Origin: Defluviitaleaceae bacterium
Lineage (GTDB): Bacteria > Bacillota > Clostridia > Lachnospirales > WQUN01
Direction: 5' to 3'
Assembly (NCBI GenBank): GCA_009780585.1
Contig: WQZS01000002.1
Coordinates: forward strand, 124,001 to 188,000
Length of the DNA: 64,000 nucleotides
Part shown: in pieces, positions 2,248 through 28,380 of the stretch
How positions within the stretch are numbered: the first letter of the stretch is position 1
How the letters are laid out: each line of letters begins with the position of its first letter
Notes under the pieces: model-generated
Databases searched by the model: none
What the model was told of the DNA's origin: nothing
Seen by the model: only the letters and a program-made list of their open reading frames with translations
Position numbers and translations under genes: made by a program

Positions 2248-4740
2248 ATGAGGAAGCACCACCAACGCCAGCTCTTAACATTGTTGCAAACCGTCCGCGA
2301 GGCACAAAATAAAAATAAATACGACATCGCCCAGGAAGGTGCGTTAGCCGCTTGTGATTTCATCGACCAAGAAAAAGGCGAGGGAACCCAAACCGTAGCC
2401 CGATTGGAAGAACATTGCGAATTGTTATTCAAAGTACATAACGGGGAAGCAAACCCCAAACTGTTAAATAAATCCCTTAATGATATAGAACGGCTTGTCA
2501 GGTTGGAATTGACCCCCACCCGTATAGAGGTTGCTTTCATTAGTTACAAAGCCGCCATGTCCGACGCGCTGGAAACCATTTATTTGGCCGCCAAGGACGA
2601 CCCCGATTGTGATGCCTATTGGATACCCGTCCCCTACTACGGCAAAAATACCGACGGCACGCACGGGGAGATGCACTACGAAGGCGCGGATTGCTACGGC
2701 CCCCAATTTGAAATTACCGATTGGCAAATGTATGATATGGAAGCCCGCCGGCCTGATGTCGTCTTTACCTTTTACCCCTATGATAACCACAATGTGGCCA
2801 CAAGCATCCATCCGGATTATTATTGCGAACGTATGCACAGCCTTACGGATACGCTGGTATATGTTCCTTACTTTGTGGTGGAAAACGCCGCAGATATATC
2901 CCTAAAGAACAGCCCTGTATTCATCAATGTCGCTTTGCGCTACGCTTCATATATTATCGTACAGTCGGAAAAGGAAAAACAAGAGGTCATCCGGCTATAC
3001 CGTAAGTTTAAAGAAGCAAACCCCAATACGGTAAATGTCGGCAATCTCGATAAAAAGTTGTTACCGCTGGGCTCGCCAAAACTTGATAAAAATTTTCCCT
3101 CTTTCCCCGTTCCCGATGAATGGACGCGTATAATAAATAACAGGAAGGTTATATTTTACAACACCGGACACAGAAACGAAAATGTTTCAGAATATCTAAA
3201 AAAGCTCCGTTCGGTACTTGCCTTCTTCCGCACACGGACAGATATCGCCCTACTTTGGCGGCCCCATCCCTTGACTGGTATTTTATACAAATCAAGGCTG
3301 CCCGAACGGTATGCCGAATACATGCAAATTGTAAACGAATATAAAAGCCAAAGTTGGGGTATATATGACGACACACCTGATTTGCATCGGGCCATTGCCC
3401 TAAGTGACACCTATTACGGGTGTGATTCTTCTGTTGTATCCCTGTATAAACAAACGGGAAAGCTTATAATGTTAGAAAATATACATATAAAAAATGGTTT
3501 CGGAGATAAACGAATAAATAATATTTTAAGATTTTCCGGCATATATGACGATGGCAACCATTATTGGGTAAGCGCGTCGGGATTTAACGCTTTGTTCAAA
3601 ATAGATAGAACTACCCTAGCCGCTAAGTATATGGGTAGCTTCCCCGGTGCGCCTGTGTATGATTCATCGTTAAATGTTTTATATAACGCAGTGAACGAAT
3701 ACAAAGGCAAACTTTATTTCGCGCCCGTTACCGCTTCACAAATAGGTGTTTACGATTTAAACGACGGTTCGTTTTCAACCCTTCCCTTAAAAATTGCATA
3801 CAATAGAATTAACAATCCATTGTTTACCTGTATACTTACCGTAGATAATGGGTTATTCTTTATACCCAATTCCTACCCTGCCATCGTTTTTTACGATGTA
3901 TATATTAATGAATTAAAGTATTATGATGATTGGCTTGAAGCATTAAACAAGCTATGCCGGCCAAATGTAAAAAACAAAATTACATCCATGAGGTACTTTA
4001 CCCCAACTGCCGCCTTGTCCCCCGATAATGAAACAATAATCCTTCCCTGTGGGAATACCGGTGCCGTGGCTGTATTTGATATTAAAAGCGGCACATCAAG
4101 GATATACAGCAAGCATCAACAGAATGGATATTGTGGTGTGGTTAGGGCTGTTAATGATTATTGGTTGATTAAGGTAAATGGTGACATAGAGATAACAAAC
4201 GACCCCGAAGGTAAAATCCGGGAAACCATACATCTTCCGGCGGATGACGAAGTAAAAAATGGGCAATACCGGTTTACATCGATTTTTTACTTTAATGGTA
4301 ATGTTTGGCTACTTCCCAACGGCGGGCGTGACACATACAAAATAAATTGCATTACAAAGGAGATCACACGGCTTGATAGTTTAATATGCGGTACCCATAT
4401 CGAGCCGTTCAATAATTTTTCATATTCTCGTGCGGTTCAGCGTGACGGCATGGTATCCACTTTATCTCAAAAGGATGGTGTTTTTAAGCAAATATCAACA
4501 ACCGGTGATATAATCCATAGCGCAGCTATTCATATATCCGATGAAGATATGTGTTGTTTAAAAAATAAGATAACAAAAGCAATTAATCCTCCGATGTATA
4601 ACGAGTGTCCGATTTTTACCCTTGATGATTTTATATATGCCTTAACCCTTCTTCCCAAAGAAAGACTTGAGGTGGGAAATAAAAACACAATTGGTTTTTC
4701 CATATACGATCATATAAAAACAACGTCAATGAAGGGATAA
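2248..4740 (+). CDS. TagF-like glycerophosphotransferase fused to a C-terminal propeller-like domain
   Basis: An 830-residue protein. Residues about 1-420 are closely related to the second TagF-like protein at 30730-32148 (both start MRKHHQ). They carry signatures of the CDP-glycerol:poly(glycerophosphate) transferase family: the LWRPHPL loop and the downstream DTPDLHRAI and YYGCDSSVV segments that form the GT-B donor site. From about residue 430 on, the chain is all-beta with repeated hydrophobic strands and Asn/Gly turns, resembling a WD40- or NHL-like propeller. TagD follows 6 nt downstream and would supply CDP-glycerol. It likely transfers glycerol-phosphate, or another CDP-activated group, to the flagellar glycan. 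No signal peptide or membrane span was seen, so it acts in the cytoplasm. Confidence 0.75.
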   Translation: MRKHHQRQLLTLLQTVREAQNKNKYDIAQEGALAACDFIDQEKGEGTQTVARLEEHCELLFKVHNGEANPKLLNKSLNDIERLVRLELTPTRIEVAFISYKAAMSDALETIYLAAKDDPDCDAYWIPVPYYGKNTDGTHGEMHYEGADCYGPQFEITDWQMYDMEARRPDVVFTFYPYDNHNVATSIHPDYYCERMHSLTDTLVYVPYFVVENAADISLKNSPVFINVALRYASYIIVQSEKEKQEVIRLYRKFKEANPNTVNVGNLDKKLLPLGSPKLDKNFPSFPVPDEWTRIINNRKVIFYNTGHRNENVSEYLKKLRSVLAFFRTRTDIALLWRPHPLTGILYKSRLPERYAEYMQIVNEYKSQSWGIYDDTPDLHRAIALSDTYYGCDSSVVSLYKQTGKLIMLENIHIKNGFGDKRINNILRFSGIYDDGNHYWVSASGFNALFKIDRTTLAAKYMGSFPGAPVYDSSLNVLYNAVNEYKGKLYFAPVTASQIGVYDLNDGSFSTLPLKIAYNRINNPLFTCILTVDNGLFFIPNSYPAIVFYDVYINELKYYDDWLEALNKLCRPNVKNKITSMRYFTPTAALSPDNETIILPCGNTGAVAVFDIKSGTSRIYSKHQQNGYCGVVRAVNDYWLIKVNGDIEITNDPEGKIRETIHLPADDEVKNGQYRFTSIFYFNGNVWLLPNGGRDTYKINCITKEITRLDSLICGTHIEPFNNFSYSRAVQRDGMVSTLSQKDGVFKQISTTGDIIHSAAIHISDEDMCCLKNKITKAINPPMYNECPIFTLDDFIYALTLLPKERLEVGNKNTIGFSIYDHIKTTSMKG

Positions 4741-4746
4741 AACCGT

Positions 4747-5169
4747 ATGAAACGAATCATAACCTACGGTACCTTCGATTTACTGCATTACGGCCATATT
4801 TATTTACTCAGCCGTGCCAAGGCTTTGGGGGATTATCTTATTGTGGTCTTGTCGGAGGATGAATTTAACGAAAAAGAAAAGTATAAAAGAACCTATTTCA
4901 ATTATAACGAGCGTAAAAAACTATTGGAAGCCGTACGCCATGTAGATTTAATTATCCCCGAAAAATGCTGGGAACAAAAAATAACCGACATACAGCTCTA
5001 TCAAGCGGACGTGTTTGTTATGGGTGATGATTGGGAAGGTAAGTTTGACTACTTAAAGCCATACTGCGAGGTTGTATACTTGCCCCGAACGGAAACGATA
5101 TCGACCACGCAAATTATTTCGGACATTTCAAACGGCGGTTATGGACGGTGCATACAATTCCCTTCATAG
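4747..5169 (+). CDS. tagD: Glycerol-3-phosphate cytidylyltransferase
   Basis: A 140-residue protein of the usual TagD length. GTFDLLHYGH (residues 8-17) holds the HxGH nucleotide-binding motif, and RTETISTT (114-121) is the second cytidylyltransferase signature. It makes CDP-glycerol from CTP and sn-glycerol 3-phosphate in the cytoplasm. It sits right after the TagF-like transferase, which suggests that the pair adds glycerophosphate to the glycan rather than building wall teichoic acid. No other wall teichoic acid genes are present here. Confidence 0.93.
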   Translation: MKRIITYGTFDLLHYGHIYLLSRAKALGDYLIVVLSEDEFNEKEKYKRTYFNYNERKKLLEAVRHVDLIIPEKCWEQKITDIQLYQADVFVMGDDWEGKFDYLKPYCEVVYLPRTETISTTQIISDISNGGYGRCIQFPS

Positions 5170-5183
5170 GAGATTTGGAAAAT

Positions 5184-6125
5184 ATGTTATATCAAGCTTT
5201 TTTAACACACAACCAAAAACCCATAACAAAATGGCTTCATTATTTTCCTGTATACGAAAGGCATTTTAACCGGTTTATAAATCAATCCATTGTTTTTTGG
5301 GAAATTGGGGTTGCAAAGGGCGGTTCGCTGCAAATGTGGAAGCGATATTTTGGCCCTCTGGCGAAGATAATAGGGATTGATATACGCCCTGAATGCAAGA
5401 ATCATGAAGAAGACCAAATAACAGTGTGCGTAGGCGATTCCAAGGATACGGCTTTTTTACAAAAAATCATTGATGCCTACGGTTATCCGGATATAATATT
5501 GGACGATGGAAGCCATTTGATGAGTGATGTATGTGCGGCATTTAACTTCCTCTATGATAAAGTTACCAAAAACGGGGTGTATATGGTTGAAGACATGCAC
5601 ACTTCATATTGGGAAAAATTTGAGGGCGGGTTAAAAAAAGAAGGTACTTTTATAGAATTATGCAAATCCTTGGCAGACCACATGAATGCCCGTTATAACG
5701 GCTTACCCCGCTTGTTTGCTGAAACAACTTTCTCCATGTCATTTTATGATTCGATGGTAGTTTTTGAAAAATCCCGAATGCTTGATGAAAATATAAAAGC
5801 GATTAAAATGCCGGGGAATGAACCCGGGTTCGCACAGGGCCTGTATGATAAGGTAGTATTTTACGGATGTGGGCAATACTTGAGAGAATTGTTAAAAATT
5901 AAAGATTTGTATGTTACCCCCGACGAAATATGGGACGTAAACGCTGAAAATATAAATAAAAATAATATTTCGTTTTTATGTGATATTCCGCTTGTCAAAC
6001 CCGATTTTTGTGCCGCTAATAAAGAAAAAATAGCCGTTTTTATCACTGTGGCGGATGAGGCGGCAAGGCGTACAATTAAAAAAACTTTAAATGATTGCGG
6101 TTTTTTTAATATTTTTAACATTTGA
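5184..6125 (+). CDS. MycE-like sugar O-methyltransferase with C-terminal Rossmann-like extension
   Basis: A 313-residue protein. It has the SAM site FWEIGVAKGGSLQMW near residue 40, the acidic strand GIDIRPEC, and ILDDGSH (metal- and substrate-binding in MycE/TylE-type sugar O-methyltransferases), followed by VEDMHTSYW and TFIE. The C-terminal third starts with VVFYGCGQYLRELL, the same YGxG module found in the radical SAM proteins nearby. The start at 5184 follows TAGGAGA and matches the start of the paralogue at 17226. It presumably O-methylates a sugar of the flagellar glycan while nucleotide- or lipid-linked. The overall fold is clear; the position methylated is not predictable. Confidence 0.8.
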   Translation: MLYQAFLTHNQKPITKWLHYFPVYERHFNRFINQSIVFWEIGVAKGGSLQMWKRYFGPLAKIIGIDIRPECKNHEEDQITVCVGDSKDTAFLQKIIDAYGYPDIILDDGSHLMSDVCAAFNFLYDKVTKNGVYMVEDMHTSYWEKFEGGLKKEGTFIELCKSLADHMNARYNGLPRLFAETTFSMSFYDSMVVFEKSRMLDENIKAIKMPGNEPGFAQGLYDKVVFYGCGQYLRELLKIKDLYVTPDEIWDVNAENINKNNISFLCDIPLVKPDFCAANKEKIAVFITVADEAARRTIKKTLNDCGFFNIFNI

Positions 6126-6137
6126 GGTGTTTATATA

Positions 6138-7430
6138 ATGGATAGGCTGCATAAAATTTTTTACGGAGCGGGGCGTGAAGCTGCGTATAAATTGCCGGTG
6201 TGGGAGGCGAAAGGTATTTCACCCACATGCTTTACCGATGCAGACCAAAGCAAGCACTATACTAAGTTTATGGATATATATGGCGATTACACTCCGTATA
6301 ATATTTTACCCTTACAAGAAGCAATAAATAAATATCCGGATTATTTATTATATATATCGCTGACAAAATCAAGCTGGCGTGACATAACCGACTATTTGAT
6401 TGGTGCGGGCATCCCACAGGATAAAATCCGGTATACCGAACCTGTGGAATGGAGGAAGGGTTGCGCCCATTTGGGCACGTTTATGAATAATGACGCTAAT
6501 CTTCGCATATGTTTGTCTCCGTTATTGTTGGAAGGCTTGCATTGCGGTATTTCAGATAATATAGAAGATAATTTTACCAACTACTTTGATAACGTTACCA
6601 AGCGCATAAATGAGCTTAAAAGTGAACAGCTTACTTCTTGCGAAGGCTGTATTCATCTAAAATATGATTTTTGGAACACGCAAACCCCTAAAATCAATAC
6701 ATTGTTTTTTGGTTCCGTCCATGACGATTTTTGTAATTTCAAATGTCTTTATTGCGGAAAACATTTAAAAAACAATCATGAAGCACTTAGGCAAAGAGCG
6801 AAAAAAATAATTGAGACAATTAAGCATTATTGCAAAACAACTATAAACGGTACGGTAATGTTTGCAAATGGGGAACCGCTCCTTTCGTTTACAAACGGTG
6901 AATTTGATGAAATTATAAATTTGATAAAGTCTAATGGCTTGCGTATGCACATTGCCACAAACGCGTCTATATACAGCGAAGCCATGGCAGGTTCATTAAA
7001 GGAGGGCTTTGGCAGTATTGTCGTATCCATTGATGCGGGTACACAGAAAACATTCGCAAAGGTTAAAGGAAATGATTGTTTCGAAAAAGTCGTTGATAAC
7101 ATAGCGCAATATGCCGGTATCGCTCCGGGCGCAGTTTTTATTAAGTATATCCTTGTTGAAGGGGAAAACGACAACGAATATGATATTGATAATTTTATTT
7201 TAATACACGATAAATTAAATCTATCAACACCCGCAGCCTTATCATTTGCAATGGATTTTGAAAACTGTACCGCACCGCTTCCCCTTCCCGAACACAGCTT
7301 AACTATAGCTACATATTTTATACGGCTATGTAAGGAAAAGCAAAAAACCTATTCTATAGTATACGATTATTTGCATCTTAAAGACGTTGCATACCTACAA
7401 CAAGCATGTGAGACCGAATATGATGAATAA
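6138..7430 (+). CDS. Radical SAM protein with N-terminal YGAG Rossmann-like domain (copy 1)
   Basis: A 430-residue protein. Residues 7-120 form a Rossmann-like module (IFYGAGREAA, then CFTDAD), like the PglD_N-type domains of sugar enzymes. A CEGC pair at 168-171 precedes the radical SAM cluster C199-x3-C203-x2-C206. Motifs FANGEP and ATNAS and a VSIDAGT strand complete the partial TIM barrel. The reaction is unknown; radical SAM enzymes in glycan loci can deoxygenate, epimerise or rearrange sugars. It is strongly similar to the genes at 7420 and 19063. GAGGTG precedes the ATG, and it lies 12 nt after the methyltransferase gene. Confidence 0.85.
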   Translation: MDRLHKIFYGAGREAAYKLPVWEAKGISPTCFTDADQSKHYTKFMDIYGDYTPYNILPLQEAINKYPDYLLYISLTKSSWRDITDYLIGAGIPQDKIRYTEPVEWRKGCAHLGTFMNNDANLRICLSPLLLEGLHCGISDNIEDNFTNYFDNVTKRINELKSEQLTSCEGCIHLKYDFWNTQTPKINTLFFGSVHDDFCNFKCLYCGKHLKNNHEALRQRAKKIIETIKHYCKTTINGTVMFANGEPLLSFTNGEFDEIINLIKSNGLRMHIATNASIYSEAMAGSLKEGFGSIVVSIDAGTQKTFAKVKGNDCFEKVVDNIAQYAGIAPGAVFIKYILVEGENDNEYDIDNFILIHDKLNLSTPAALSFAMDFENCTAPLPLPEHSLTIATYFIRLCKEKQKTYSIVYDYLHLKDVAYLQQACETEYDE

Positions 7431-8715
7431 TGACATGCTTATTTTTTATGGTGCGGGGATATATGCCGCAATCAATTTGCCGATGTGGGAAGCTAAAGGC
7501 TTAACCCCTTTGTGTTTTGCTGATGCAGATACAAGAAAGCATTATACAAAATTGATGGATATATTCGGCGGGTATACCCCCTATGACATACTGCCGTTAC
7601 AAGAAGCAATAAATCGTTATCCCAATTACCACATATATGTAACCGTAGCCCGGGATAAGTTAACAGAGGTTACAAATTATTTAATGGATAAGCAAATACC
7701 ACAGGAAAGAATTAAATACATGGATTCGCTTGAATTAAGATATGGGTGCCATTCATTGGGGCGCGTTTTTCAATGTTGGGGAAGTGCTTTTAAGGTTTGT
7801 GCCAATGCGTACCGCCCCGAAGGTCTTTTTAGTGAAGGAACAATGAAAGCCGGCGACAATTTTAATATGCATAAAATTTTGGTTGAAAATAGAATAAATA
7901 CTTTAAGAGCAAACAAGAGCGCCTCATGTGAAGGTTGCCGTTATTTGGAAAAGAATTTTTGGGAAAGCACTGTACCCCAAATTGATTTAATTACCATAAG
8001 CTCGATACAAGGTAGCGATTGGTGTAATTTTAAATGCATTTATTGCGAAACATATCCAAAGCCCGAAAATAAAGCACACCGGCAAAGGTTTTCAGCGGTT
8101 ATGGATACATTAACGAACTTTATCGGGGTGTCAAAAAAAGGAAAGATAAATATTGCCAGTGGCGAACCGGTCATTAACTTCACCCCATTACAACTAAAAA
8201 AAATAATAGAATTGGTACGAAGTAACGACAGACAAATTAATTTTGCTACAAACGCTTCTTTATACAGCACCGCTATAGCCGAAGCGTTAACAGAGGGGTT
8301 TGCAACCATTACCATCAGCATTGACGCGGGAATGAGGGAAACATTTTACAAAGTAAGGGGTGTGGACTGCTTCGAAAAAGTGATAAAAAACATTAAACGT
8401 TATGCCCAAAGCAATAAAAACGCAGTGATTATTAAATACATTGTACTAACGGGTTTGAACGATAACGAAACGGATATAAATGGTTTTTTGGATATTGCAA
8501 CGGAGCTTAACCTGCCAACACCCATAACAATTACGGGGATGTATAATGCTATCAGCTTGGAACCGGCAACGCCCCTTCCTGAAAAGACCTTGCTGGCTGT
8601 TGAATACCTGTTGAAACAATGCAAGAAAAGGGGGTTGGAATACAACTTAATCAAAAATGAATATTTTACAACGGATGATATAGAAATAATAAAAAATTTT
8701 GAAGAGAGGTATTAA
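7420..8715 (+). CDS. Radical SAM protein with N-terminal YGAG Rossmann-like domain (copy 2)
   Basis: About 431 residues and a close paralogue of the previous gene along its whole length: IFYGAGIYAA, MWEAKGLTP, DADTRKHYTK and ILPLQEAIN align in the first 70 residues. It has the CEGC pair and a cluster C202-x3-C206-x2-C209 (CNFKCIYC), then ASGEP and ATNAS. The start is uncertain: ATGATG at 7420-7425 overlaps the upstream stop codon, suggesting translational coupling; an upstream ATG at 7387 would overlap far into the previous gene. The tandem duplication suggests two related steps, or two substrates, in one pathway. Confidence 0.85.
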   Translation: MMNNDMLIFYGAGIYAAINLPMWEAKGLTPLCFADADTRKHYTKLMDIFGGYTPYDILPLQEAINRYPNYHIYVTVARDKLTEVTNYLMDKQIPQERIKYMDSLELRYGCHSLGRVFQCWGSAFKVCANAYRPEGLFSEGTMKAGDNFNMHKILVENRINTLRANKSASCEGCRYLEKNFWESTVPQIDLITISSIQGSDWCNFKCIYCETYPKPENKAHRQRFSAVMDTLTNFIGVSKKGKINIASGEPVINFTPLQLKKIIELVRSNDRQINFATNASLYSTAIAEALTEGFATITISIDAGMRETFYKVRGVDCFEKVIKNIKRYAQSNKNAVIIKYIVLTGLNDNETDINGFLDIATELNLPTPITITGMYNAISLEPATPLPEKTLLAVEYLLKQCKKRGLEYNLIKNEYFTTDDIEIIKNFEERY

Positions 8716-8717
8716 TC

Positions 8718-9416
8718 ATGAACATCACGCAAGAATTATCAAACATCTTAAAGGAAGCCGGTTGTGAAATCTTTGGCTTTGCCGATTTGAAATGCATACC
8801 AAAAGAAATGCGACAGCTATTTAGTTGTGGGATTTTAATTGCCTTACCTTTTCCAAAAGAAGCCTTGCAAGAAAATATTAACGGAAACCCCCAACAGTAT
8901 TACGAAGCGCGGATAAGTTTAGAAAAACGCCTTCGTGGATTTTCAACCATGACTGCCAATTTCCTTTTATCAAAAGGATTTAACTCGATGGCAAACGTGC
9001 CAACATCGGTTGTGACAGACACAGAAGAATTACGAACCATTTTACCTTATAAAACAGTGGCGACTTTGGCAGGGGTCGGTTGGATTGGCAAATGTGCTGC
9101 GTTGGTGACGGAAAAAGCCGGTTCTGCTATGGTTTTAACTACCGTGTATACCACCGCCCCTTTGGAATGCGGCACACCCATTACCAAATCCCGTTGCCCC
9201 GAGGAATGTACTGTATGTAAGGATATTTGCCCCGGAAATGCGCCTCTTGGCGGTTCTTGGGAAGTTGGGGTTGACCGCGATGCGTTTTTTAATCCCCACA
9301 AATGCAAGGAATTTGGTTCTGCGCGAGGCAAGGAGCTTATTAATGTGGAATCGCAATGGGGATGCGGATTATGTTTGGCACATTGCCCGTTTACAAGAAA
9401 GGCGGTGGGGTATTAA
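8718..9416 (+). CDS. QueG-like iron-sulfur protein (epoxyqueuosine reductase family fragment-length homologue)
   Basis: A 232-residue protein. Its second half carries two ferredoxin-type cysteine sets, CPEECTVCKDICP and CGLCLAHCPFT, and the stretch LAGVGWIGKCAALVTEKAG, as in QueG and related DUF1730 proteins. True QueG is longer (roughly 300-380 residues) and reduces epoxyqueuosine in tRNA with cobalamin and two 4Fe-4S clusters. Here the N-terminal part is shortened and no queuosine genes are nearby. It is probably a dedicated electron-transfer or reductase component for a glycan-building step, perhaps serving the radical SAM enzymes beside it. GAGAGG precedes the start. Confidence 0.7.
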   Translation: MNITQELSNILKEAGCEIFGFADLKCIPKEMRQLFSCGILIALPFPKEALQENINGNPQQYYEARISLEKRLRGFSTMTANFLLSKGFNSMANVPTSVVTDTEELRTILPYKTVATLAGVGWIGKCAALVTEKAGSAMVLTTVYTTAPLECGTPITKSRCPEECTVCKDICPGNAPLGGSWEVGVDRDAFFNPHKCKEFGSARGKELINVESQWGCGLCLAHCPFTRKAVGY

Positions 9417-9417
9417 T

Positions 9418-10422
9418 ATGAACATCAGCAGATTTCCACGTCGCCGGTATACCCTTGGTTATACCCCCATCGAAAAATTAAACCGCCTCAGCGACATTGC
9501 GGGGGGTGGGGTCAATATTTATGTTAAACGGGATGATATGTTGGGCTTGACGGGTGGCGGCAACAAAACACGGGTGTTGGAATTCCTGATGGCTGATGCA
9601 TTGGAAAAAGGTGCGGACACCATTATTACCTGCGGGGCGGTTCAATCCAACCATTGCAGGCTTACACTGGCGGCGGCTGTTAAAGAAGGGCTTAAATGCC
9701 ACTTGGTTATTGAGCAGCGCGTTCCGAAAAGTTATGATGCAACCGCCAACGGAAATAATTTTTTATTTAATTTGTTAGGGGTTGAAGGCACACATGTCGT
9801 TGACGGCGGAAGCGATATGCTTGCGGAAATGGAAAAAGTGGCTAACCTGTTAAAAAGCCAAAACAGAAATCCTTACATTATACCCGGCGGGGGTTCCAAT
9901 GCCATTGGTTCACTGGGTTATGTGGCTTGTATGCAGGAACTGTTATGCCAATTTACCGAAATGAATTTATCTATGGATTATATAGTCCTTACCAGCGGAA
10001 GCGGCGGAACCCATACCGGAATGCTTTGCGGTGCGATTGGGTTTAATGCCAATATTCCCATCATCGGCATTGGCATAAACCGCCCAAAGGATGTTCAACG
10101 CAAATCCGTATTTACCCTTTGCGATAAAACATCCGATTTATTAAATCTAAAAAACCGCCCATGTTATGAAGATGTCATCGTTTTTGATGATTATATTGGC
10201 AAGGGGTATTCTTATGTTACCGATGGTATGTTGGAAGCGGTTAAACTGACGGCACGTACGGAAGGGATTTTGCTTGATCCTATTTATACCGGTAAATGTA
10301 TGGCGGGATTATTGGATTTAATTAAAAAGGGATACTTTCCCAAAGGTAAAAATGTGCTGTTCCTTCATACCGGGGGTTCTGCGTCCCTTTATGCATACAC
10401 GAATGAGTTCACAGGGAGTTAG
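9418..10422 (+). CDS. PLP-dependent lyase/deaminase of the D-cysteine desulfhydrase / ACC deaminase family
   Basis: A 334-residue protein of typical family length. The PLP lysine is in LTGGGNKTRVLEF (Lys50), followed by CGAVQSNHCR; SGSGGTHTGM is the phosphate-binding loop and LDPIYTGKCMAGL lies near the end. Relatives include D-cysteine desulfhydrase, 1-aminocyclopropane-1-carboxylate deaminase and L-cysteate sulfo-lyase, so the substrate cannot be fixed by sight. It starts one base after the QueG-like gene stops and is embedded in the glycan operon. It may release sulfide or process an amino-acid-derived substituent for the glycan, or be a simple D-amino-acid detoxifier. Confidence 0.8.
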   Translation: MNISRFPRRRYTLGYTPIEKLNRLSDIAGGGVNIYVKRDDMLGLTGGGNKTRVLEFLMADALEKGADTIITCGAVQSNHCRLTLAAAVKEGLKCHLVIEQRVPKSYDATANGNNFLFNLLGVEGTHVVDGGSDMLAEMEKVANLLKSQNRNPYIIPGGGSNAIGSLGYVACMQELLCQFTEMNLSMDYIVLTSGSGGTHTGMLCGAIGFNANIPIIGIGINRPKDVQRKSVFTLCDKTSDLLNLKNRPCYEDVIVFDDYIGKGYSYVTDGMLEAVKLTARTEGILLDPIYTGKCMAGLLDLIKKGYFPKGKNVLFLHTGGSASLYAYTNEFTGS

Positions 10423-12061
10423 ACGTTTAGTTATATTCGTATTTTATGACAAAGAGGGTATTGTGGATGACTATGTACCCTATTATTTGAATGAGCTGGT
10501 TCAAAATGCCTCCCATTTGGTAATCGTTTGCAATGGCTTCCTTTCTGATGAAGGAAGGCAAAAAATGTCTGCCTTTACAGAGGATTTATTTGTCCGCCCC
10601 AATATCGGCTTTGATGCGGGAGCGGTAAAAGATGTGCTTTTTAATTTTATCGGTTGGGACAAGCTGAATGAATTTGACGAATTGTTAATCGCTAACGATA
10701 CAGTTTTGGGTCCTTTTCGCCCGTTAAAGGAAATTTTTTCAAAAATGCACGATAAACCCGTAGATTTTTGGGGTATATCATGGTGTGCCAGGTTTTATGA
10801 TGATATTGATAAAGGTTATGTTCAATCGTATTTTATCAATATTAAAGAAAGATTGCTGCACAGCCCGGTTTTTAAATCCTTTTGGCATTATTTGCACCCT
10901 AATGCAATGTCGTATGGGGAAATTGTATCTGCCTATGAAATGTCGTTTACGCAAAATTTTGTTTCACAGGGTTTTATGTGCGCCGTGTATACCGATGGTA
11001 TGATAAATGACCAAAATATTATTTTTTCCTCGCCCTATGATGCGATAAAACGATACAATTTCCCCTTTATTAAACGAAAAAGCCTGATATGCCATACCGA
11101 TGCAGGCTTTGGGCTGTATACGCATATGCCGGCAAACGCAATCATTGATTATATAAAAAATAATACCCTATATGACGAGGGATTAATTTGGCAGCATTTA
11201 CTTAGGACACATACGGCATATGAATTATCCGAATATTTAAAAATAAAATTTGCCTTGCCCGATGATTGTTGCAAACCCGGCACCGTTAATAAGCGCTTGG
11301 GGGTGGTTGCTAACGAAACAGCCGGAAATTATATCAAAAAATTAAATTTGGAAATAATATCCCACGATTCGGTAAAACTGTATGATTATATTTGCATCCT
11401 GAATGATAAATTACCCTTTGATAATGAAATTATGTGGGAAAATGCCTTATCTACGCCGGAATATATAAATAATATTGTAACTGTATTTGAAGCAAACCCT
11501 TATTTAGGGTTTTTAACGGTTCCCAATCATTATTATTCAATATATTTACATGATTTTTTAACCAACAGCCCAACATACAATGCTGCATGGATACGGGTTG
11601 CCGCCATAGGGGAATATATATATATCCATGATATAAACGAATTGGTTGAAAAAGCAAGGGAACAAGGATTTTATAGCGGCGAACTTATGACGGCTAAATA
11701 TGCCGCAATGCAAAGCAGCGATTTAAAATATATGGCTGTTTTGTTTTACAACCTTATGTTGTTTGTTCGCGGGCTTAATAAAATATACCTTTATGGCACA
11801 GGTGCATCCGCATCTATTTGGTCCGGTATTATGGATAGGTTGGGGATTCCTTTTGAAGGCTATATCGTTTCGGATCATTTACTTGACCGGCGGCTTTTTT
11901 TAGGAAAACCGGTTTATTGCCTTCATGAAATTGCAGGTACCGGCTGTGGCATTGTTTTATCTGTGATGCGGCAAAATGCACGGGATGTGTTGCCAATGAT
12001 AAACAAAAAGGGTTTTAAGGTGTTTTCCCCTTTTAATGACGGAGGAAAAAGTGAACGATAA
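10403..12061 (+). CDS. RgpF-type rhamnan synthesis domain protein with C-terminal YGxG module
   Basis: About 552 residues. The first 300 show the RgpF/rhamnan synthesis F pattern: VIFVFYDKEGIVDDYVPYY, PNIGFDAGAVKDVL, LLIANDTVLGPF and FWGIS. RgpF-type proteins act in the assembly of rhamnose-containing polysaccharides. Near residue 455 a Rossmann-like module begins (KIYLYGTGASASIW) and continues with GYIVSD, so this protein also carries the island's recurrent module, at its C-terminus. The start is taken at ATG 10403, overlapping the previous gene by 20 nt; ATG 10391 is an alternative and neither has a good ribosome binding site. It fits with the rfbCABD genes downstream. Confidence 0.72.
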   Translation: MSSQGVRRLVIFVFYDKEGIVDDYVPYYLNELVQNASHLVIVCNGFLSDEGRQKMSAFTEDLFVRPNIGFDAGAVKDVLFNFIGWDKLNEFDELLIANDTVLGPFRPLKEIFSKMHDKPVDFWGISWCARFYDDIDKGYVQSYFINIKERLLHSPVFKSFWHYLHPNAMSYGEIVSAYEMSFTQNFVSQGFMCAVYTDGMINDQNIIFSSPYDAIKRYNFPFIKRKSLICHTDAGFGLYTHMPANAIIDYIKNNTLYDEGLIWQHLLRTHTAYELSEYLKIKFALPDDCCKPGTVNKRLGVVANETAGNYIKKLNLEIISHDSVKLYDYICILNDKLPFDNEIMWENALSTPEYINNIVTVFEANPYLGFLTVPNHYYSIYLHDFLTNSPTYNAAWIRVAAIGEYIYIHDINELVEKAREQGFYSGELMTAKYAAMQSSDLKYMAVLFYNLMLFVRGLNKIYLYGTGASASIWSGIMDRLGIPFEGYIVSDHLLDRRLFLGKPVYCLHEIAGTGCGIVLSVMRQNARDVLPMINKKGFKVFSPFNDGGKSER

Positions 12062-14198
12062 ATTGATTAATCAACAAGTATTTATAATGCCTTTTACGCC
12101 AAAATCAATTTTGCTCTACTATCTGTTAGTTGATAATGGGGTTGAAGTAGTTGGTTTTTGTGATAATGCCAATGCGTTAGCGGCAAAAAAGTTTAAAAAT
12201 ACGCCGATATTCCCCCCTCAAGAGGCTTATAACATTAACCCTAATGCTTTTGTCCTATTAAGCGAGGACCGTTTTTTTGACATTAATGGAAAGCAACTTG
12301 CAGAAATTGGATTTAAAAAAACGCTTACTATCACGAAACTTGATTTTAACGATAAATTGAAATCTTACATTCCAAAAATGGATGTGTCGTATTATTCCAA
12401 ACTTATACCCAATCAAGTTGAATACGGAAAGGCTATAATAAAAATTTTAAATGATGTTAATAATTGGAAAGATTTTTTAGCATCCTTAGATATTGAATAC
12501 CCCACCCCATACCACTATAAAATACCTGATGCCCCCTTTGTTGTCGGAACACAACAGAACATAAATTTTTTGCTTTGCGTGAATGCAACGGGTTATTTTA
12601 ATATGGAATTTTTGCTTCAATGCTTAGACAGTATAGAAAATCAAAATTACCCCTTGTTTTCATATTTATTTTTAATTTCAGCCGACAACCAAAAAGAATT
12701 ACAAAAAACTTTACACTTACGCAACTTAAACAATACGATATTGATAACATCCCCATGCCATGTCAATAATATAAATGCGGTTGATGTTCTTCGCAACCAA
12801 TTCTCCGGCTGTATCCATTACGATTTTATTATAACCGTGGGTGCCAATGACAAATTGGCCAATAATGCATTGTTTATTTTAGCAAATGAAATTGTTAACA
12901 ATAAAAATTCATTATTGTTTACTGCCAATGAAGACCGTGAATATAACGGGGATTTTATTGCCCCTTATTATAAACGTGATTACAAACAACTCCATTATAT
13001 GACTGCTGCGGGGCTATGCAAAAACTTTGTTTGCATCCGTGCAAACATAAAAAGCAGCATAAATGAAATGAATACAGATGATATCCATATTGTGGATGAA
13101 GTGCTCTATCATTACAAAGTGATAAGTTCTTCTCAAAATAATAATGAAATAAAAATCATCGCTTTTTATCTGCCGCAGTTTTATCCCTTTCCCGAAAATG
13201 ACCGCTGGTGGGGAACGGGCTTTACGGAATGGACAAACACCAAACGGGCGATACCGATGTATGAAGGACATTACCAACCCCATGAACCGGGTGCATTGGG
13301 ATATTATGATTTAATTAAAGATAAGGATGTGCAAAGAAAACAAGCGGAGTTGGCAAAAAAGCATGGCATTTATGGCTTTTGTTATTATTACATGTGGTTT
13401 GGCGGTAAGAGGCTGTTAGAAAAACCGCTTTTTAAAATGTTAAACGACCCGAAAATTGATATACCTTTTTGTATCATGTGGTGCAACGAATCATGGAGCC
13501 GGCGATGGGATTCGCGTGAAAATGAGGTTTTAATTGCCAACATCCATGACGATGAATCGGACCGGCAATTTATATTGGATGCGTTACCGATATTGCGTGA
13601 CGAAAGGTATATCACTATTAGTGGTGCGCCATTATTAATTATTTATAGGATTGACCAATTTCCCGATTTCAAAAAAACCGTTGCGCTGTGGAGGCAAATC
13701 GCTGCCGAAAACGGAATAAAAAAGCTACACATTTCAGTTGCATTACATGCTTGGGCTATATTCGATGACGTAACATCGTATGGATGTGATTCGACTACCG
13801 AATTCCCACCCCACAGAAACCCAACCACTGATATAACAAAAAAAATGAATTTGAATCATGGGTTTAATGGTAAAATATTTGATTATGTGGAATATGTTCG
13901 CCGTGCAATGAACCGTCATAGGTTTAAACACCGCAGGTTTAGAGGCGCTATGCAAAGCTTTGATAATACGGCACGCAGAATGGAAAACGCATTTATATTT
14001 CACGGTTCTACCCCCGAGGAATATAAAAAGCTCATAATTTCCCTTGTGGACTATACATCGAGGCAACCTAAGGAAGACAAAATTATTTTTATTAATGCGT
14101 GGAACGAATGGGCGGAGGGTAACCACTTAGAGCCCGATATGAAATATGGCGAAGCCTATCTGCAAGCTACGCTTGATGCATTGCATATCAATTGTTAA
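12051..14198 (+). CDS. Three-part glycan enzyme: Rossmann-like module, GT2-like domain, WbsX domain
   Basis: About 715 residues. Residues 1-110 resemble the degenerate Rossmann module of the neighbours (VEVVGFCDNANALAAKKF). Residues about 165-330 look like an eroded GT-A/GT2 fold (LLQCLDSIENQNYPLF). The last 340 residues are a WbsX (GH99-like) domain: IIAFYLPQFYPFPENDRWWG, GFTEWTN, YGFCYYYMWF, CNESWSRRW and a closing INAWNEWAEGNHLEPD. WbsX domains occur in O-antigen, flagellar and S-layer glycan loci. Start: GGAGG at 12041-12045 points to GTG 12051, five bases downstream, rather than ATG 12036. It overlaps the RgpF-type gene by 11 nt. Confidence 0.78.
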   Translation: MNDKLINQQVFIMPFTPKSILLYYLLVDNGVEVVGFCDNANALAAKKFKNTPIFPPQEAYNINPNAFVLLSEDRFFDINGKQLAEIGFKKTLTITKLDFNDKLKSYIPKMDVSYYSKLIPNQVEYGKAIIKILNDVNNWKDFLASLDIEYPTPYHYKIPDAPFVVGTQQNINFLLCVNATGYFNMEFLLQCLDSIENQNYPLFSYLFLISADNQKELQKTLHLRNLNNTILITSPCHVNNINAVDVLRNQFSGCIHYDFIITVGANDKLANNALFILANEIVNNKNSLLFTANEDREYNGDFIAPYYKRDYKQLHYMTAAGLCKNFVCIRANIKSSINEMNTDDIHIVDEVLYHYKVISSSQNNNEIKIIAFYLPQFYPFPENDRWWGTGFTEWTNTKRAIPMYEGHYQPHEPGALGYYDLIKDKDVQRKQAELAKKHGIYGFCYYYMWFGGKRLLEKPLFKMLNDPKIDIPFCIMWCNESWSRRWDSRENEVLIANIHDDESDRQFILDALPILRDERYITISGAPLLIIYRIDQFPDFKKTVALWRQIAAENGIKKLHISVALHAWAIFDDVTSYGCDSTTEFPPHRNPTTDITKKMNLNHGFNGKIFDYVEYVRRAMNRHRFKHRRFRGAMQSFDNTARRMENAFIFHGSTPEEYKKLIISLVDYTSRQPKEDKIIFINAWNEWAEGNHLEPDMKYGEAYLQATLDALHINC

Positions 14199-14210
14199 AG
14201 GGGAATTTTT

Positions 14211-15428
14211 ATGAAGTGGACAAACCCGGGGCATCAGTTCGATGAATGGGGGCGTACTTTATGCGAGATAAATACCATTTATATTTGGGGCGCAGGTGTA
14301 GGCGGCGCTAATATTTATCATTGCATCCATTGGTTGGGTATAGAAAAAGACCTTACTATTTGTTTTGTGGACGCTGATAAAGAAAAACAAGGGAACCTAT
14401 TTTGTGATAAGTGCATAATATCACCACAGCAATTTTTTGAAATATTTAAAAATGACGGAACCATGGTACTTATCATTGCCCTAAGAGCAGAAAAATCATT
14501 GGCATATATATACAAAGAATGGGATCTGGAAAACAAAGCAGAAATTATACCGGGGAAAAATTGTTTCACATATACGCAAAAAAATAAAACCAAAAAAATT
14601 TTTTCTTTATTGATGATGTATAGATATGGAAAGCTCCTTTCGATGGAGCAAACCTTAATTACCACAACGGAGTGTACCCTTAATTGCAATTGCTGTTTGA
14701 ACTTTACACCCTATAATAAAAACCGCAGGCATTTCCCATTGGATGAACTTATTGCAGATATCGACCTTTTATTTTCAAGGGTTGATTATGTATATTCGTT
14801 TTATATTTCCGGGGGCGAAAGCCTTTTGTATGATGAGTTACCGAACCTGATTGATTATATCGGAAAAAAATACCGTAACCATATATACGAGCTGACCCTT
14901 CCCACTAATGGGACCCTTGTCCCCGGCAAAGCTGTGCTGGAAAAATTGTCGGAGCATCGTTTGAAAGTGAGAATTGATGATTATAGGGACACAGTACCTA
15001 TTTGCAATGAACATATACCCGTTATCATTGATTTATTTCATCGGTATAATATAGCATTTTATTTGTTCAAGCCCGAAGAATGGATTAACTTAGAACATGA
15101 AAATACTGCAAACCATTTCATGGGGAATGAAGATCTTATTAGGCATTTTGATGCATGTGGTTTACGATATAAGTATTTAAAGAACGGGAAGCTTTATGCT
15201 TGTGACTTTCATGCCTTTGCCGCAGAAGCGGATGTAGGCAGGGTAGATGACGGTGACTTCCTCGATTTTAAAAATGCCACTAAGGGTGAAATCCTTGAAT
15301 TTTTGTTAGGATATAATCAGAAGGGATATATAAGCTTTTGTAAAAATTGCCTTGGCTCTTATGCCATAAACAAAAACAGGATACAACCGGCTGTACAATT
15401 AGAGCAGAGGGTGATTTGTGATGAATAA
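14211..15428 (+). CDS. Radical SAM protein with N-terminal WGAG module and SPASM-like C-terminal cysteines
   Basis: A 405-residue protein. It opens with a Rossmann-like unit (IYIWGAGVGGANIYHCI, then ICFVDAD). The radical SAM cluster is C155-x3-C159-x2-C162 (CTLNCNCC), followed by YISGGESLL and TNGTL. The C-terminal region has scattered cysteines (DACGLRY, YACDFH, FCKNCLGS), as in SPASM-type auxiliary cluster domains. It differs from the other three radical SAM proteins, which have a CEGC/CQGC pair before the cluster instead. It belongs to the rightward operon; substrate unknown. Confidence 0.82.
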   Translation: MKWTNPGHQFDEWGRTLCEINTIYIWGAGVGGANIYHCIHWLGIEKDLTICFVDADKEKQGNLFCDKCIISPQQFFEIFKNDGTMVLIIALRAEKSLAYIYKEWDLENKAEIIPGKNCFTYTQKNKTKKIFSLLMMYRYGKLLSMEQTLITTTECTLNCNCCLNFTPYNKNRRHFPLDELIADIDLLFSRVDYVYSFYISGGESLLYDELPNLIDYIGKKYRNHIYELTLPTNGTLVPGKAVLEKLSEHRLKVRIDDYRDTVPICNEHIPVIIDLFHRYNIAFYLFKPEEWINLEHENTANHFMGNEDLIRHFDACGLRYKYLKNGKLYACDFHAFAAEADVGRVDDGDFLDFKNATKGEILEFLLGYNQKGYISFCKNCLGSYAINKNRIQPAVQLEQRVICDE

Positions 15429-16668
15429 TATAATGAAATGTGGATTTTGTGAAAGTAATAACCTTCATATCTTTGTAGATTTGGGTATTATGCCCCCTGC
15501 CAATGCCTATGTAAAAGCAAACGAAGCGGAAACCTACTTCCCGCTTAGGGTTTATGTTTGTGATGCTTGTAAATTGGTACAAGTTCAAAAATTTGAAACC
15601 CCGGAAAATATTTTTTTGGATTATGCGTATTTTTCAAGTATATCCCGCGGATGGCAGAAGCATTGCCGGGAATATAGTGAAATGATAATAAGCAATTGTA
15701 ATATTGATAAAAACAGTTTTGTGGTGGAAATAGCTTCAAACGACGGATGTTTATTAAAAAATTTTATAGCAAAAGGGATTCCTGTCGTCGGTGTTGAACC
15801 TGCAAAAAATGTTGCTGCCTCGGCAATAAAAAATGGGGTGCCCACTTTTTGTGATTTTTTTAATACAGAAAACGCAAAAAAAATTATCAATGAACATAGG
15901 CAACCGGATTTAATAATCGCAAACAATGTTTTTGCCCACACGCCCGATATTAATGACTTTGCCGAAGGGATTAGGGAATTGTTAATACCCGGTGGCATCG
16001 TAACCTTTGAATTTCCCGGTTTACGCAATTTAATAAACGAAGGGCAGTTTGATACGATTTACCACGAGCATTTTTATTATTATTCCCTGACCATTGTACA
16101 AAAAATATTAATCAAGCATGGGTTGCGGGTTTTTCATGTGGAAAACCTTCCGACTCATGGCGGGTCGTTGCGTGTGTATGCCTGTCATGAGCATGACCAA
16201 ACTCATACCATTAATAGCAGTGTCGAAAACGAATTGGAAAAGGAAAAAAACGCCGGTTTGAATGATTTAAACGTTTACTTAGGGTTTGACAAGAGGGTAC
16301 AGCAAATCAAAAAAAATACATTAAACTACCTTTTAAAATGCAAGGAGGAAGGCAACAGGATTGTAGCCTTTGGCGCAGCAGCCAAGGGAAGTACATTCTT
16401 GAATTATTGCGGTATCAAAACCGATATTGTTGACTATGTAATCGACGAAACCCCTTATAAACAGGGTCTTAATATGCCGGGTGTACAAATCCCTATCTAC
16501 CCCTTGGAAAAGCTCGCCCAAGACAAGCCGGATATCATAATCATCCTTCCTTGGAATTGGAAAGATGAAATAGCAAAAAAAATAAATTTTATTGGTAAAA
16601 ATGGCGGCAAAGCGGTTACTTTTATTCCTGATTTACAAGAACATGTTTTTGATGGGACAATGTTATGA
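15421..16668 (+). CDS. NDP-hexose C-methyltransferase family protein
   Basis: About 415 residues with the three-part layout of sugar C-methyltransferases such as TylCIII, EvaC and NovU: an N-terminal zinc site (CGFC near residue 8 and CDAC near 42), a central SAM domain (VVEIASNDGCLLKNF, VGVEPAKN), and a C-terminal Rossmann-like domain (IVAFGAAAKGSTFLNY). HEHFYYY in the middle holds the catalytic His-Glu-His region. It methylates a carbon of a dTDP-4-keto-sugar, which fits the rfb genes that follow. ATG 15421 is preferred over GTG 15418 and overlaps the previous stop. It implies that the locus makes a branched deoxysugar besides, or instead of, plain rhamnose. Confidence 0.85.
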   Translation: MNNIMKCGFCESNNLHIFVDLGIMPPANAYVKANEAETYFPLRVYVCDACKLVQVQKFETPENIFLDYAYFSSISRGWQKHCREYSEMIISNCNIDKNSFVVEIASNDGCLLKNFIAKGIPVVGVEPAKNVAASAIKNGVPTFCDFFNTENAKKIINEHRQPDLIIANNVFAHTPDINDFAEGIRELLIPGGIVTFEFPGLRNLINEGQFDTIYHEHFYYYSLTIVQKILIKHGLRVFHVENLPTHGGSLRVYACHEHDQTHTINSSVENELEKEKNAGLNDLNVYLGFDKRVQQIKKNTLNYLLKCKEEGNRIVAFGAAAKGSTFLNYCGIKTDIVDYVIDETPYKQGLNMPGVQIPIYPLEKLAQDKPDIIIILPWNWKDEIAKKINFIGKNGGKAVTFIPDLQEHVFDGTML

Positions 16669-17225
16669 AAATAGTTGAAATGGATCTTGCCGGTGCCAAA
16701 ATAATCGAACCTGATGTTTACGAAGATAACAGGGGGTTTTTTTATGAAAATTATTCAATGGCGAAATTATCCGTTTATGGGATAACCGATCATTTCGTTC
16801 AAGACAACCATACGTTTTCCCGAAAAGCAGGGACGCTTAGGGGGTTGCATTTTCAACTTGAACCTTATGCACAGGCTAAAATAATCCGTTGCACACGCGG
16901 AAAAGTATTGGATGTGGTTGTAGACATCCGGGTGGGTTCACCAACCTATGGCAAGTGGGTATCGGTAGAATTGTCGGCTGATAATTTTAAACAGGTATAC
17001 ATCCCTAAAGGCTTTGCCCACGGTTTCCTTACCCTAACCGATGACGTAGAGTTGCAATATAAAGCAAGCAATTATTATTCACCCGATTGTGACAGAGGTA
17101 TACGCTGGAATGATTTTACTATAGGCATTGAGTGGGGAATAACAAACCCCATTTTATCGGACAAAGATAAAATCGCACCGTTTTTAACAGAATCAGAAAA
17201 TAATTTTACATGGAGTGATGTTTAA
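16665..17225 (+). CDS. rfbC: dTDP-4-dehydrorhamnose 3,5-epimerase
   Basis: A 186-residue cupin-fold enzyme of standard length. DNRGFFYENY near residue 21, the catalytic histidine in LRGLHFQ (His62) and GKVLDVVVDIR are diagnostic. It performs the third step of dTDP-L-rhamnose synthesis, epimerising dTDP-4-keto-6-deoxyglucose at C3 and C5. ATGA overlaps the stop of the C-methyltransferase gene. With a C-methyltransferase directly upstream, a related epimerase for a branched sugar is also possible. Confidence 0.93.
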   Translation: MKIVEMDLAGAKIIEPDVYEDNRGFFYENYSMAKLSVYGITDHFVQDNHTFSRKAGTLRGLHFQLEPYAQAKIIRCTRGKVLDVVVDIRVGSPTYGKWVSVELSADNFKQVYIPKGFAHGFLTLTDDVELQYKASNYYSPDCDRGIRWNDFTIGIEWGITNPILSDKDKIAPFLTESENNFTWSDV

Positions 17226-18170
17226 ATGCTATATCATGATTTTTTGGACAATACCCAAAAACCCATTACCAAAGCTGCGCATTACTTCCCCATTTATGAA
17301 AGGCATCTGAAAAAATTCCGTAACCAATCTATTATATTTTGGGAAATAGGTGTTTTTGAAGGTGGTTCTTTACAAATGTGGCAACGTTTTTTAGGCCCTT
17401 ATGCTAAAATTATTGGTATCGATATAAACCCAATTTGTAAAAAACATGAAGACTGGCAAATCAGTGTTCGTATTGGTGACCAAGCGGATACAAAATTTTT
17501 ACAAGAGGTGATTGACGAATTTGGTTATCCGGACGTAGTTATCGATGACGGCAGCCATCATATGGAGCAAACATATGCTTCATTTGATTTTTTATATGAC
17601 AAATTACGAAATAATGGTGTTTATCTGGTGGAAGATATGGGTACATCCTATATGCCTTCTTTTGGCGGGGGTTTGGGAAAGGACGAAACTTTTATAGAAC
17701 GAAGCAAAAAAATGATTGATTTATTAAACGCCAGGCAAAATGAATTATCTCAAGAGTTTGCAAAATCTACCTTTTCTGTTTGTTTTTACGAATCGGTTGT
17801 TGTTTTTGAAAAATTGCGATGGTTTAACCCCATAACAAATATAAGAACCCCCATGCGTTTTAAAGAAATTGATATAAGCCGTTATAATAAAATTATTTTT
17901 TACGGTTGTGGTATGCATTTAAAAAATATATTTAATTATATGTATATAAATATTATGCCTGATGAAATATGGGATATTAACGCAAACGAAATAATGACAA
18001 ATAATAATATACCCGATAATTTAAAACATGTTCCCCTTTGCTTGCCTGATTTTACAATTACCGATAAAGAAAAAGTAGCAATTATAATCACTATGGCTGA
18101 AGGGAATGCGAAAGAAGAAGTCAAACGTTTATTAAAGGATAAAGGATTTACTTCTGTTTATTATGTGTAA
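17226..18170 (+). CDS. MycE-like sugar O-methyltransferase with C-terminal Rossmann-like extension (second copy)
   Basis: A 314-residue protein, paralogous to the one at 5184: [44 protein letters not shown] and VEDMGTSYM align in order. IDDGSH is the conserved metal/substrate loop of the MycE group. The tail begins [14 protein letters not shown], the island's YGxG module. It starts right after the rfbC stop. The duplicate probably methylates a different hydroxyl or a different sugar. It is noticeably AT-rich compared with the flanking rfb genes. Confidence 0.8.
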
Positions 18171-19062
18171 AGGTGAGGGCAATAAAATAAAGGGCATAAT
18201 TTTGGCAGGGGGAGCAGGAACGCGCCTTTTTCCCCTTACATGTGTAACCAGTAAACAATTATTGCCGGTGTATGATAAACCCATGATATATTATCCTTTA
18301 TCCACTTTAATGCTGGCGGGTATCAGGGATATCCTTATCATATCCACACCGGACGATTTACCTAATTTTGAGCGGTTATTGGGAACCGGTGAAAGCTTGG
18401 GGCTGAACCTAGCGTACAAGGTGCAACCAAGCCCGGACGGTTTGGCGCAGGCTTTTATTATAGGGGAAGATTTTATAAATGGCAGTAGCTGCGCAATGGT
18501 GTTGGGCGATAATATATTTTATGGAAACGGATTTTCCGCTCTGTTGCAAAACGCAGTAAAGAAAAACGATGGCGCAACCATTTTTGGTTATTATGTTGAT
18601 GACCCGGAGCGCTTTGGCGTGGTCGAATTTGATACAACCGGAAAAGTGGTGAGCATAGAAGAAAAACCCAAAACCCCAAAATCCAACTATGCTGTGACAG
18701 GACTTTATTTTTATGACAAAAATTGTGTGGAGTACGCCAAAAGCCTAAACCCAAGTACCCGGGGGGAATTGGAAATAACCGACCTTAACCGGATTTATTT
18801 GCAACAAGAAAAATTGGATGTAAAAATATTGGGGCGCGGTTATGCGTGGATGGACATGGGTACGGTAGATAGTCTTATTGATTCTTCCAATTTTATTATG
18901 GCGGTGGAAAAGCGGCAGGGCATAAAGATATCCGCCATTGAGGAAATTGCGTATCGTATGGGTTTTATTGATTTGACACAATTAAGATTTTTAACAAATA
19001 GCTACGGGAAATCACCTTATGGCGTGTATTTACAAAAAATTATCGAAGGGAAGGTAAGGTAA
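18163..19062 (+). CDS. rfbA: Glucose-1-phosphate thymidylyltransferase
   Basis: Nearly 300 residues, standard for RfbA/RmlA. It has [43 protein letters not shown] and YAWMDMGT. It makes dTDP-glucose from dTTP and glucose 1-phosphate. The start is odd: homologues begin MKGIILAGG, but here the codon at that place is ATA (18187-18189), 7 nt after a good AGGTGAGGG. The first in-frame ATG (18163) lies before that site, overlaps the previous gene by 8 nt and has no ribosome binding site at normal distance. Confidence 0.93.
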
Positions 19063-20397: not shown

Positions 20398-20406
20398 GGT
20401 GGAAAC

Positions 20407-27781: not shown

Positions 27782-28380
27782 TTATTAATACCCCATAATT
27801 TATTAAATATTTTTACATCATCATTAACGATTTCTTCTTCTCTTTCCGGGTGCCACATAATACCCATGATGGGTAATGATGAATGTTTAACCCCTTCAAC
27901 AACCCCGTCATCGGTACGAGCAAATACATCAAGACATGGTGGGACTGTATTCGCTGCATAGTTATGAAAACTTTTAACAAAACGATTTATGTTTCCGTTT
28001 ATTTTGTGCTTCACTCTTACATGCGCATCAACTTTTTTTAAATTTCCGCCAAAGTATAATAAGATTGACTGCATTCCGCGACATACGCCGATTAAAGGAA
28101 TTTTATGATTAACGGCATAATCCAATAAAAAATTATCAATTTTATCTCGTTCAACAGAAATACCATGGTATTCATCCGAGCTGTATCCCCCTGTTAATAA
28201 AATCCCCTGGGGAGATATTGCGTTTAATATTTCGGGCAATGCCTTGGAAAAATTGGGAACGGGAAAAGTAACCGCTCCGGTTTCCCATAAAAAGGGTACC
28301 CAATTCTGATCAAGGGAATCCCTCACTTCATTATAATCGGTTACCATATCAACCCGCTGACTTACAAGCACCCGCTTCAT
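27778..28380 (-). CDS. Class I amidotransferase-like hydrolase, Cj1417-like (predicted gamma-glutamyl-CDP-amidate hydrolase)
   Basis: A 200-residue peptidase C26 fold. The nucleophile is in PLIGVCRGMQS, and the His-Glu pair is in GIMWHPEREE; GILLTGGYSSDEYHG is the substrate loop. In Campylobacter jejuni the homologue Cj1417, of similar size, cleaves gamma-glutamyl-CDP-amidate to release CDP-phosphoramidate and glutamate. Start: ATG at 28380 after GAAGGTGATG; a longer form from 28407 overlaps the kinase gene. The gene is bracketed tightly by the kinase (10 nt upstream) and the cytidylyltransferase (4-nt overlap). An ordinary gamma-glutamyl-GABA hydrolase is the alternative. Confidence 0.8.
   Translation of the reverse strand: MKRVLVSQRVDMVTDYNEVRDSLDQNWVPFLWETGAVTFPVPNFSKALPEILNAISPQGILLTGGYSSDEYHGISVERDKIDNFLLDYAVNHKIPLIGVCRGMQSILLYFGGNLKKVDAHVRVKHKINGNINRFVKSFHNYAANTVPPCLDVFARTDDGVVEGVKHSSLPIMGIMWHPEREEEIVNDDVKIFNKLWGINK

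Follow-up and report, generated by a model that had tools for sequence, protein, structure and literature searches.

Most radical SAM enzymes with known sugar substrates belong to antibiotic pathways. Among enzymes with auxiliary clusters, BtrN holds its cluster by four cysteine ligands and carries out the two-electron oxidation of an aminocyclitol alcohol, whereas MoaA combines three ligands and an open site with a redox-neutral reaction (PMC9012708). Twitch enzymes carry the auxiliary site in an extension that follows the core at the C-terminus (PMC9012708), and many characterised enzymes with comparable clusters have peptide substrates (PMC9012708, PMC10470005). Here we describe three paralogues in a window of 64,000 nucleotides (the whole stretch of DNA that was analysed) from a flagellated, anaerobic-type Defluviitaleaceae bacterium; they are genuine radical SAM enzymes and form part of one undescribed family. 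Their genes belong to a + strand operon of 17 genes (2248-22220), so tightly packed, its intergenic gaps being 12 bp at most, that a gene for a precursor peptide would not fit. The features are these:

2248-4740, + strand: first operon gene, with a CDP-glycerol-phosphotransferase-like N-terminal half and a C-terminal extension (44 % identity to 30730-32148)
4747-5169, + strand: glycerol-3-phosphate cytidylyltransferase of TagD type (TIGR01518, 180 bits, cutoff 165)
5148-6125, + strand: methyltransferase with a C-terminal YGCG Rossmann-like module (52 % identity to 17226-18170)
6138-7430, + strand: radical SAM paralogue 1 (430 aa)
6462-6650, + strand: four-cysteine module of paralogue 1 (C109, C125, C168, C171), a predicted auxiliary [4Fe-4S] site
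7420-8715, + strand: radical SAM paralogue 2 (ATG at 7420 or 7423; 430-431 aa)
7747-7938, + strand: four-cysteine module of paralogue 2 (C109, C126, C169, C172, in window:7423 numbering)
8718-9416, + strand: QueG/RDH-like [4Fe-4S] protein (profile match)
9418-10422, + strand: PLP enzyme of the D-cysteate sulfo-lyase (CuyA) family (NF052482, 480 bits, cutoff 450; start codon inferred)
10352-12061, + strand: RgpF-like glycosyltransferase with a C-terminal YGTG module (Pfam match; start uncertain, about 10418)
12036-14198, + strand: WbsX-type glycosyltransferase (PF14307, 419 bits)
14211-15428, + strand: fourth radical SAM protein (405 aa)
15418-16668, + strand: NDP-sugar C-methyltransferase-like protein (Methyltransf_13 and Methyltransf_14)
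16665-17225, + strand: dTDP-4-dehydrorhamnose 3,5-epimerase of rfbC type (direct reading)
17226-18170, + strand: second methyltransferase, presumably MycE/CmcI-like (profile match)
18163-19062, + strand: rfbA, glucose-1-phosphate thymidylyltransferase (TIGR01207, 469 bits, cutoff 361)
19063-20397, + strand: radical SAM paralogue 3 (444 aa; GC 0.31)
19405-19608, + strand: four-cysteine module of paralogue 3 (C115, C137, C179, C182)
20407-21378, + strand: dTDP-glucose 4,6-dehydratase of rfbB type (direct reading)
21360-22220, + strand: dTDP-4-dehydrorhamnose reductase of rfbD type, the final operon gene (direct reading)
34346-36682, - strand: flagellin (profile match), with a GT2/TPR glycosyltransferase gene after it (32145-34271)

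The first gene product has no Pfam match of its own in a Pfam search, and the methyltransferases at 5148-6125 and 17226-18170 are both taken to be MycE/CmcI-like, the name MycE-like being our own attribution. Rossmann-like modules of the YGCG, YGTG or FGAA kind stand at the C-terminus of methyltransferases and of the glycosyltransferase (5148-6125, 10418-12061, 15418-16668, 17226-18170), and such a module is common to several proteins of the locus. One gene pair looks like a single later insertion into the operon: The iron-sulfur protein and the CuyA-family enzyme (8718-10422) have a GC content of 0.446, against 0.37-0.38 in the surrounding genes. Since the pair is absent from those loci of relatives that were compared, and its GC content deviates, a part for these two proteins alongside the radical SAM enzymes was rejected.

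The Pfam model Radical_SAM (PF04055) is matched above its gathering score by all four radical SAM proteins (E 6e-14, 7e-15, 1e-8 and 3e-9). The initial annotation had given the genes at 6138, 7420 and 19063 one layout, and the alignment bears this out: YGAG, CEGC or CQGC, and CNFxCxYC lie in register in proteins that share 42 and 31 % identity (42 % for 6138 versus 7420), so that each has a Rossmann-like YGAG domain at its N-terminus, then the four conserved cysteines and a CX3CX2C core (C199/C203/C206 in paralogue 1). The C-x-G-C pair that it had pointed out is present too, and can now be described more precisely as the second half of the four-cysteine module. Its placing of a third copy within the rfb genes is exact, for 19063-20397 fills the interval between rfbA and rfbB. 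In the tree, 6138 and 7420 are sisters (support 100/98) and 19063 is the most diverged copy; a search of the organism's own genome (3.1 Mb in 53 contigs) found no copies besides these three.

The family was defined from full-length relatives in related genomes, 18 members of which were aligned. Exactly seven cysteines are invariant among them: the core contributes its three, and the other four precede it as C, C, CxxC. E248, N277, S299, D301, T307, K338, Y339 and N346 are likewise invariant. Every member except the tandem sister (42 %) is 19-30 % identical to window:7423, and the conservation of seven cysteines at such distances is, as judged from these sequences, a strong constraint far beyond chance. 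The four-cysteine module precedes the core in every member; after the core, none of the 18 has an invariant cysteine, and Pfam searches gave no match to a SPASM or a B12-binding domain. Searches of Pfam, NCBIfam and PHROGs gave no named family, generic superfamily matches alone being found, far under the NCBIfam cutoffs, and a literature search conducted mostly outside subscription papers found no paper on it.

Long members, of about 410-450 aa, have a YGAG or FGAG Rossmann-like domain at the front; minimal members, of about 340-365 aa, start with the four-cysteine module. Several fusions occur in addition: a GT2 glycosyltransferase (L057:2856-5018) or a SPASM radical SAM protein (L054:10425-12689) ahead of the member, a CPT-type kinase behind it (L052:2639-4717), and a Rossmann-like module behind it in L059:4368-5900 and L140:8633-9979. 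The same YGAG module, 43 % identical, is found on an FkbM methyltransferase (L061:9214-10656). AlphaFold models built from the three window sequences were poor (pLDDT 60 and 56), and served only to assess the YGAG domain and the fold of the core. By profile, this domain matches UDP-D-quinovosamine 4-dehydrogenase (3nkl, E 0.0034) and, by fold, 2g6t of Clostridium acetobutylicum (residues 3-104, Z 9.7, rmsd 2.6); both share its Rossmann-like fold, and neither has a radical SAM core attached, unlike the family members.

The core has the usual partial TIM barrel of radical SAM enzymes, resembling by profile BtrN, anSME, MoaA and BlsE, with other radical SAM enzymes as its fold matches. Is the module in front of it, then, a displaced twitch domain? 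Its order of cysteines, C...C...CxxC, invariant in the 18 members, is twitch-like. In one set-up of HHalign the module scored 17.0 against twitch, beating 100 of 100 column shuffles (maximum 14.9), whereas with the larger set the scores were 15.4 against a shuffle value of 15.4, and 12.1 against 16.1. The AlphaFold model shows strands at 115-117 and 122-127 and a helix at 142-162, but is weak here, its pLDDT being about 23-40 over most of the module's length. The module stands before the core, where twitch enzymes have their site after it, and since shuffled scores were beaten in one set-up and not in the larger, we do not class it as a twitch domain.

The distribution of the family is narrow and patchy, as follows from the counts: Members occur in 11 of the 38 genomes of the window's GTDB family and in 16 of 344 across the order, these being the same 11 and five from other families, while a class sample of 391 genomes added two. 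Outside the window genome, a profile search of 398 phylum genomes gave core matches only, as did a viral scan with its four matches; a scan of a genome collection with the three window proteins returned generic radical SAM cores alone, at about 25 % identity over the core, its peptide patterns being too narrow to prove absence. Neighbouring copies group together in the tree in L056, L049/L050 and L055, just as 6138 and 7420 do, from which it follows that tandem duplication occurred on more than one occasion.

The fourth radical SAM protein is only a distant relation of the three paralogues, and pairwise comparison with them gave nothing significant. It has the WGAG Rossmann-like domain that was reported for it, a CTLNCNCC core and the C-terminal cysteines C316, C331 and C377xxC380 (about 15156-15350); these were called SPASM-like, and would more aptly be described as a twitch-type set for one cluster than as the full SPASM set. 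Its relatives are rare (two of 149 phylum genomes at E 1e-12, the window genome counted), and at least one of them lies within about 10 kb of a family member in the window, L053, L059, L138 and L140, which span three families. One glycan locus of another family (L138:6747-13944) holds three copies of the 14211 type and one family member. All four radical SAM proteins claimed for the operon are there, and their number, held to be unusual, is not unique, since two loci in another family contain four and three such genes. The chemistry beyond known deoxysugar pathways that had been read from this number is a conjecture, as is a sugar substrate.

A survey of gene neighbourhoods, which the initial annotation had recommended, found the Rossmann-bearing members mostly in surface-glycan loci, their neighbours (n=66) including 10 GT2 and five GT1 glycosyltransferases, four FkbM methyltransferases, Polysacc_synt_2, DegT and pyruvyl transferase proteins. 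These neighbours, the GT2 fusion and the YGAG module on an FkbM methyltransferase make a glycan role of the family well supported. Relatives of the transferase family of 2248 and 30730 accompany members in six loci (window, L053, L054, L055, L059, L140), and none was found in 19 loci of generic radical SAM matches. Some minimal members have housekeeping surroundings and no adjoining glycan genes, namely L062:14342-15403 (topA/dprA), L106:10074-11093 (tRNA synthetase) and L108:9580-10608 (ssb).

The term flagellar glycan operon, used at first, combines a glycan role that stands with an attribution to flagella that is our interpretation, for the flagellin gene lies about 12 kb from the operon, on the opposite strand and in a separate transcription unit. 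The link to flagellin is positional, and direct in two sister species of the window's genus: Minimal members (three copies in L055, one in L058) directly follow flagellin there and precede a glycosyltransferase gene homologous to window 32145. It does not extend to every member: flagellin is present in 33 of the 38 genomes in the GTDB family, carriers and non-carriers alike, a genome-wide association was rejected as not significant (11/11 carriers versus 22/27 non-carriers), and genome G793 has a family member and no flagellin. Most Rossmann-bearing members are in loci that have no flagellin and are rich in glycan enzymes.

Downstream of the window's flagellin, the - strand at 27065-30712 encodes a cytidylyltransferase, a GATase resembling gamma-glutamyl-CDP-amidate hydrolase (best NCBIfam match NF045546, 113 bits, below the cutoff of 250) and a PEP-synthase-like kinase of PRK05849 type (928 bits). 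We take this set to be the phosphoramidate (MeOPN) pathway of Campylobacter, presumably Cj1416-Cj1418, which suggests that the window organism carries phosphoramidate on a flagellar glycan. In a sister species, the flagellin-linked locus contains a PEP mutase fused to a cytidylyltransferase (L055:1432-2715), and a separate glycan locus on the same contig contains a TPP decarboxylase, possibly a phosphonopyruvate decarboxylase (L054:18700-19815); this species may have phosphonate on the glycan instead of phosphoramidate.

What reaction could such enzymes catalyse on a glycan? Our preferred explanation, to which we give a probability of about 0.45, is that the three proteins are tailoring enzymes of surface glycans, in part those of flagellin, performing a two-electron sugar oxidation like that of BtrN. 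The four cysteines are predicted to bind one auxiliary [4Fe-4S] cluster and to supply its full set of four ligands. Reductive cleavage of SAM would generate the 5'-deoxyadenosyl radical, which would abstract hydrogen from a carbinol carbon of the sugar, whether this is carried on a nucleotide or has already entered the glycan; the auxiliary cluster would then take a second electron from the substrate radical, leaving a keto-sugar, as in BtrN. Such a product could undergo C-methylation by the protein of 15418-16668, or a reduction that gives a new epimer, and the tandem copies may target different positions or different residues, with the Rossmann-like module probably serving in binding of nucleotide sugars or in docking to partner proteins. 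Oxidation of a sugar carbinol is ranked first because a four-ligand cluster is of the BtrN kind, as opposed to the three ligands and redox-neutral reaction of MoaA; deducing the reaction type from the cysteine count is itself interpretative, and four ligands alone would be no proof of oxidation. Against glycan tailoring speak the minimal members among housekeeping genes and, for its flagellar part, G793.

Second in our ranking, and on balance unlikely, is redox-neutral chemistry on the sugar, that is a radical epimerisation, dehydration or deamination in the manner of NeoN/AviX12 or DesII. The gene surroundings fit it as well as they fit oxidation, and rfbA and rfbB would supply dTDP-4-keto-6-deoxyhexose by the established pathway, a precursor of DesII-type substrates; DesII is besides among the fold matches (Z 10.4), tied with many others. 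However, Cys-dependent radical epimerases employ a cysteine as hydrogen donor, and the 18 members have no eighth invariant one, while the four extra cysteines invariant in the family set it apart from DesII, which is not known to have an auxiliary cluster.

Modification of a protein instead of a sugar, with flagellin as substrate where the gene follows flagellin and other surface proteins elsewhere, appears less probable again. The peptide substrates common among such auxiliary-cluster enzymes (PMC9012708, PMC10470005) and the position of the L055 and L058 copies would agree with it; the flagellin-free, glycan-rich loci of most Rossmann-bearing members, the GT2 fusion, the packed operon and G793 would not. 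Ranked slightly below it, and improbable in our judgement, is an action on a phospho-substituent (glycerol, phosphonate or a phosphoramidate moiety on a CDP carrier) and not on the sugar ring, which draws on the repeated co-location with CDP-glycerol-transferase-like proteins, on TagD in the operon of the paralogues and on the PEP mutase and TPP decarboxylase genes of the sister islands, yet L049, L050, L051 and L056 have members without those genes. Sulfur insertion of LipA or MiaB type was rejected on motif, for LipA has an N-terminal CX4CX5C and MiaB/RimO a three-cysteine motif, whereas the family has C-x(about 16)-C and a distant CxxC.

With its repeated presence in surface-glycan loci of anaerobes and its fusions to glycan enzymes, the family would extend radical chemistry to bacterial surface and flagellin glycans, and would provide a testable enzyme set for unusual sugars beyond the reach of standard deoxysugar pathways. 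Most reusable of all is the family definition, which rests on seven cysteines, fusions, loci and a co-located second radical SAM family. As a more doubtful proposal, it may constitute a separate radical SAM class, with an N-terminal auxiliary cluster domain and fused Rossmann-like docking modules or glycosyltransferase, which in anaerobic bacteria would use radical chemistry at a late stage to tailor surface and flagellar glycans, assembled or carrier-linked, and is often paired with the 14211 type.

Compared with known systems, anSME and the SPASM and twitch peptide maturases (SuiB, CteB, ChlB, SkfB) are alike in core fold and in having one or more auxiliary clusters, and differ in the C-terminal SPASM or twitch region and the precursor peptide gene, which are missing from the family and from the operon respectively. 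DesII and BlsE share core fold and sugar context, but give no full-length sequence match and have a different auxiliary site or none. NF033640 (N_Twi_rSAM), which judging by its short name has an N-terminal twitch, is matched weakly and over the core part of the model only (E 4e-6, 26 bits or less against a cutoff of 170 bits), and has no members above cutoff in 149 phylum genomes. The nearest parallel is BtrN, the 2-deoxy-scyllo-inosamine dehydrogenase, whose profile match (E 1.4e-4) covers only the core: It likewise has one four-cysteine cluster site, predicted in our family, and a carbohydrate-like substrate, proposed for the family, whereas its auxiliary site follows the core that the family's precedes, and the family adds a Rossmann-like domain.
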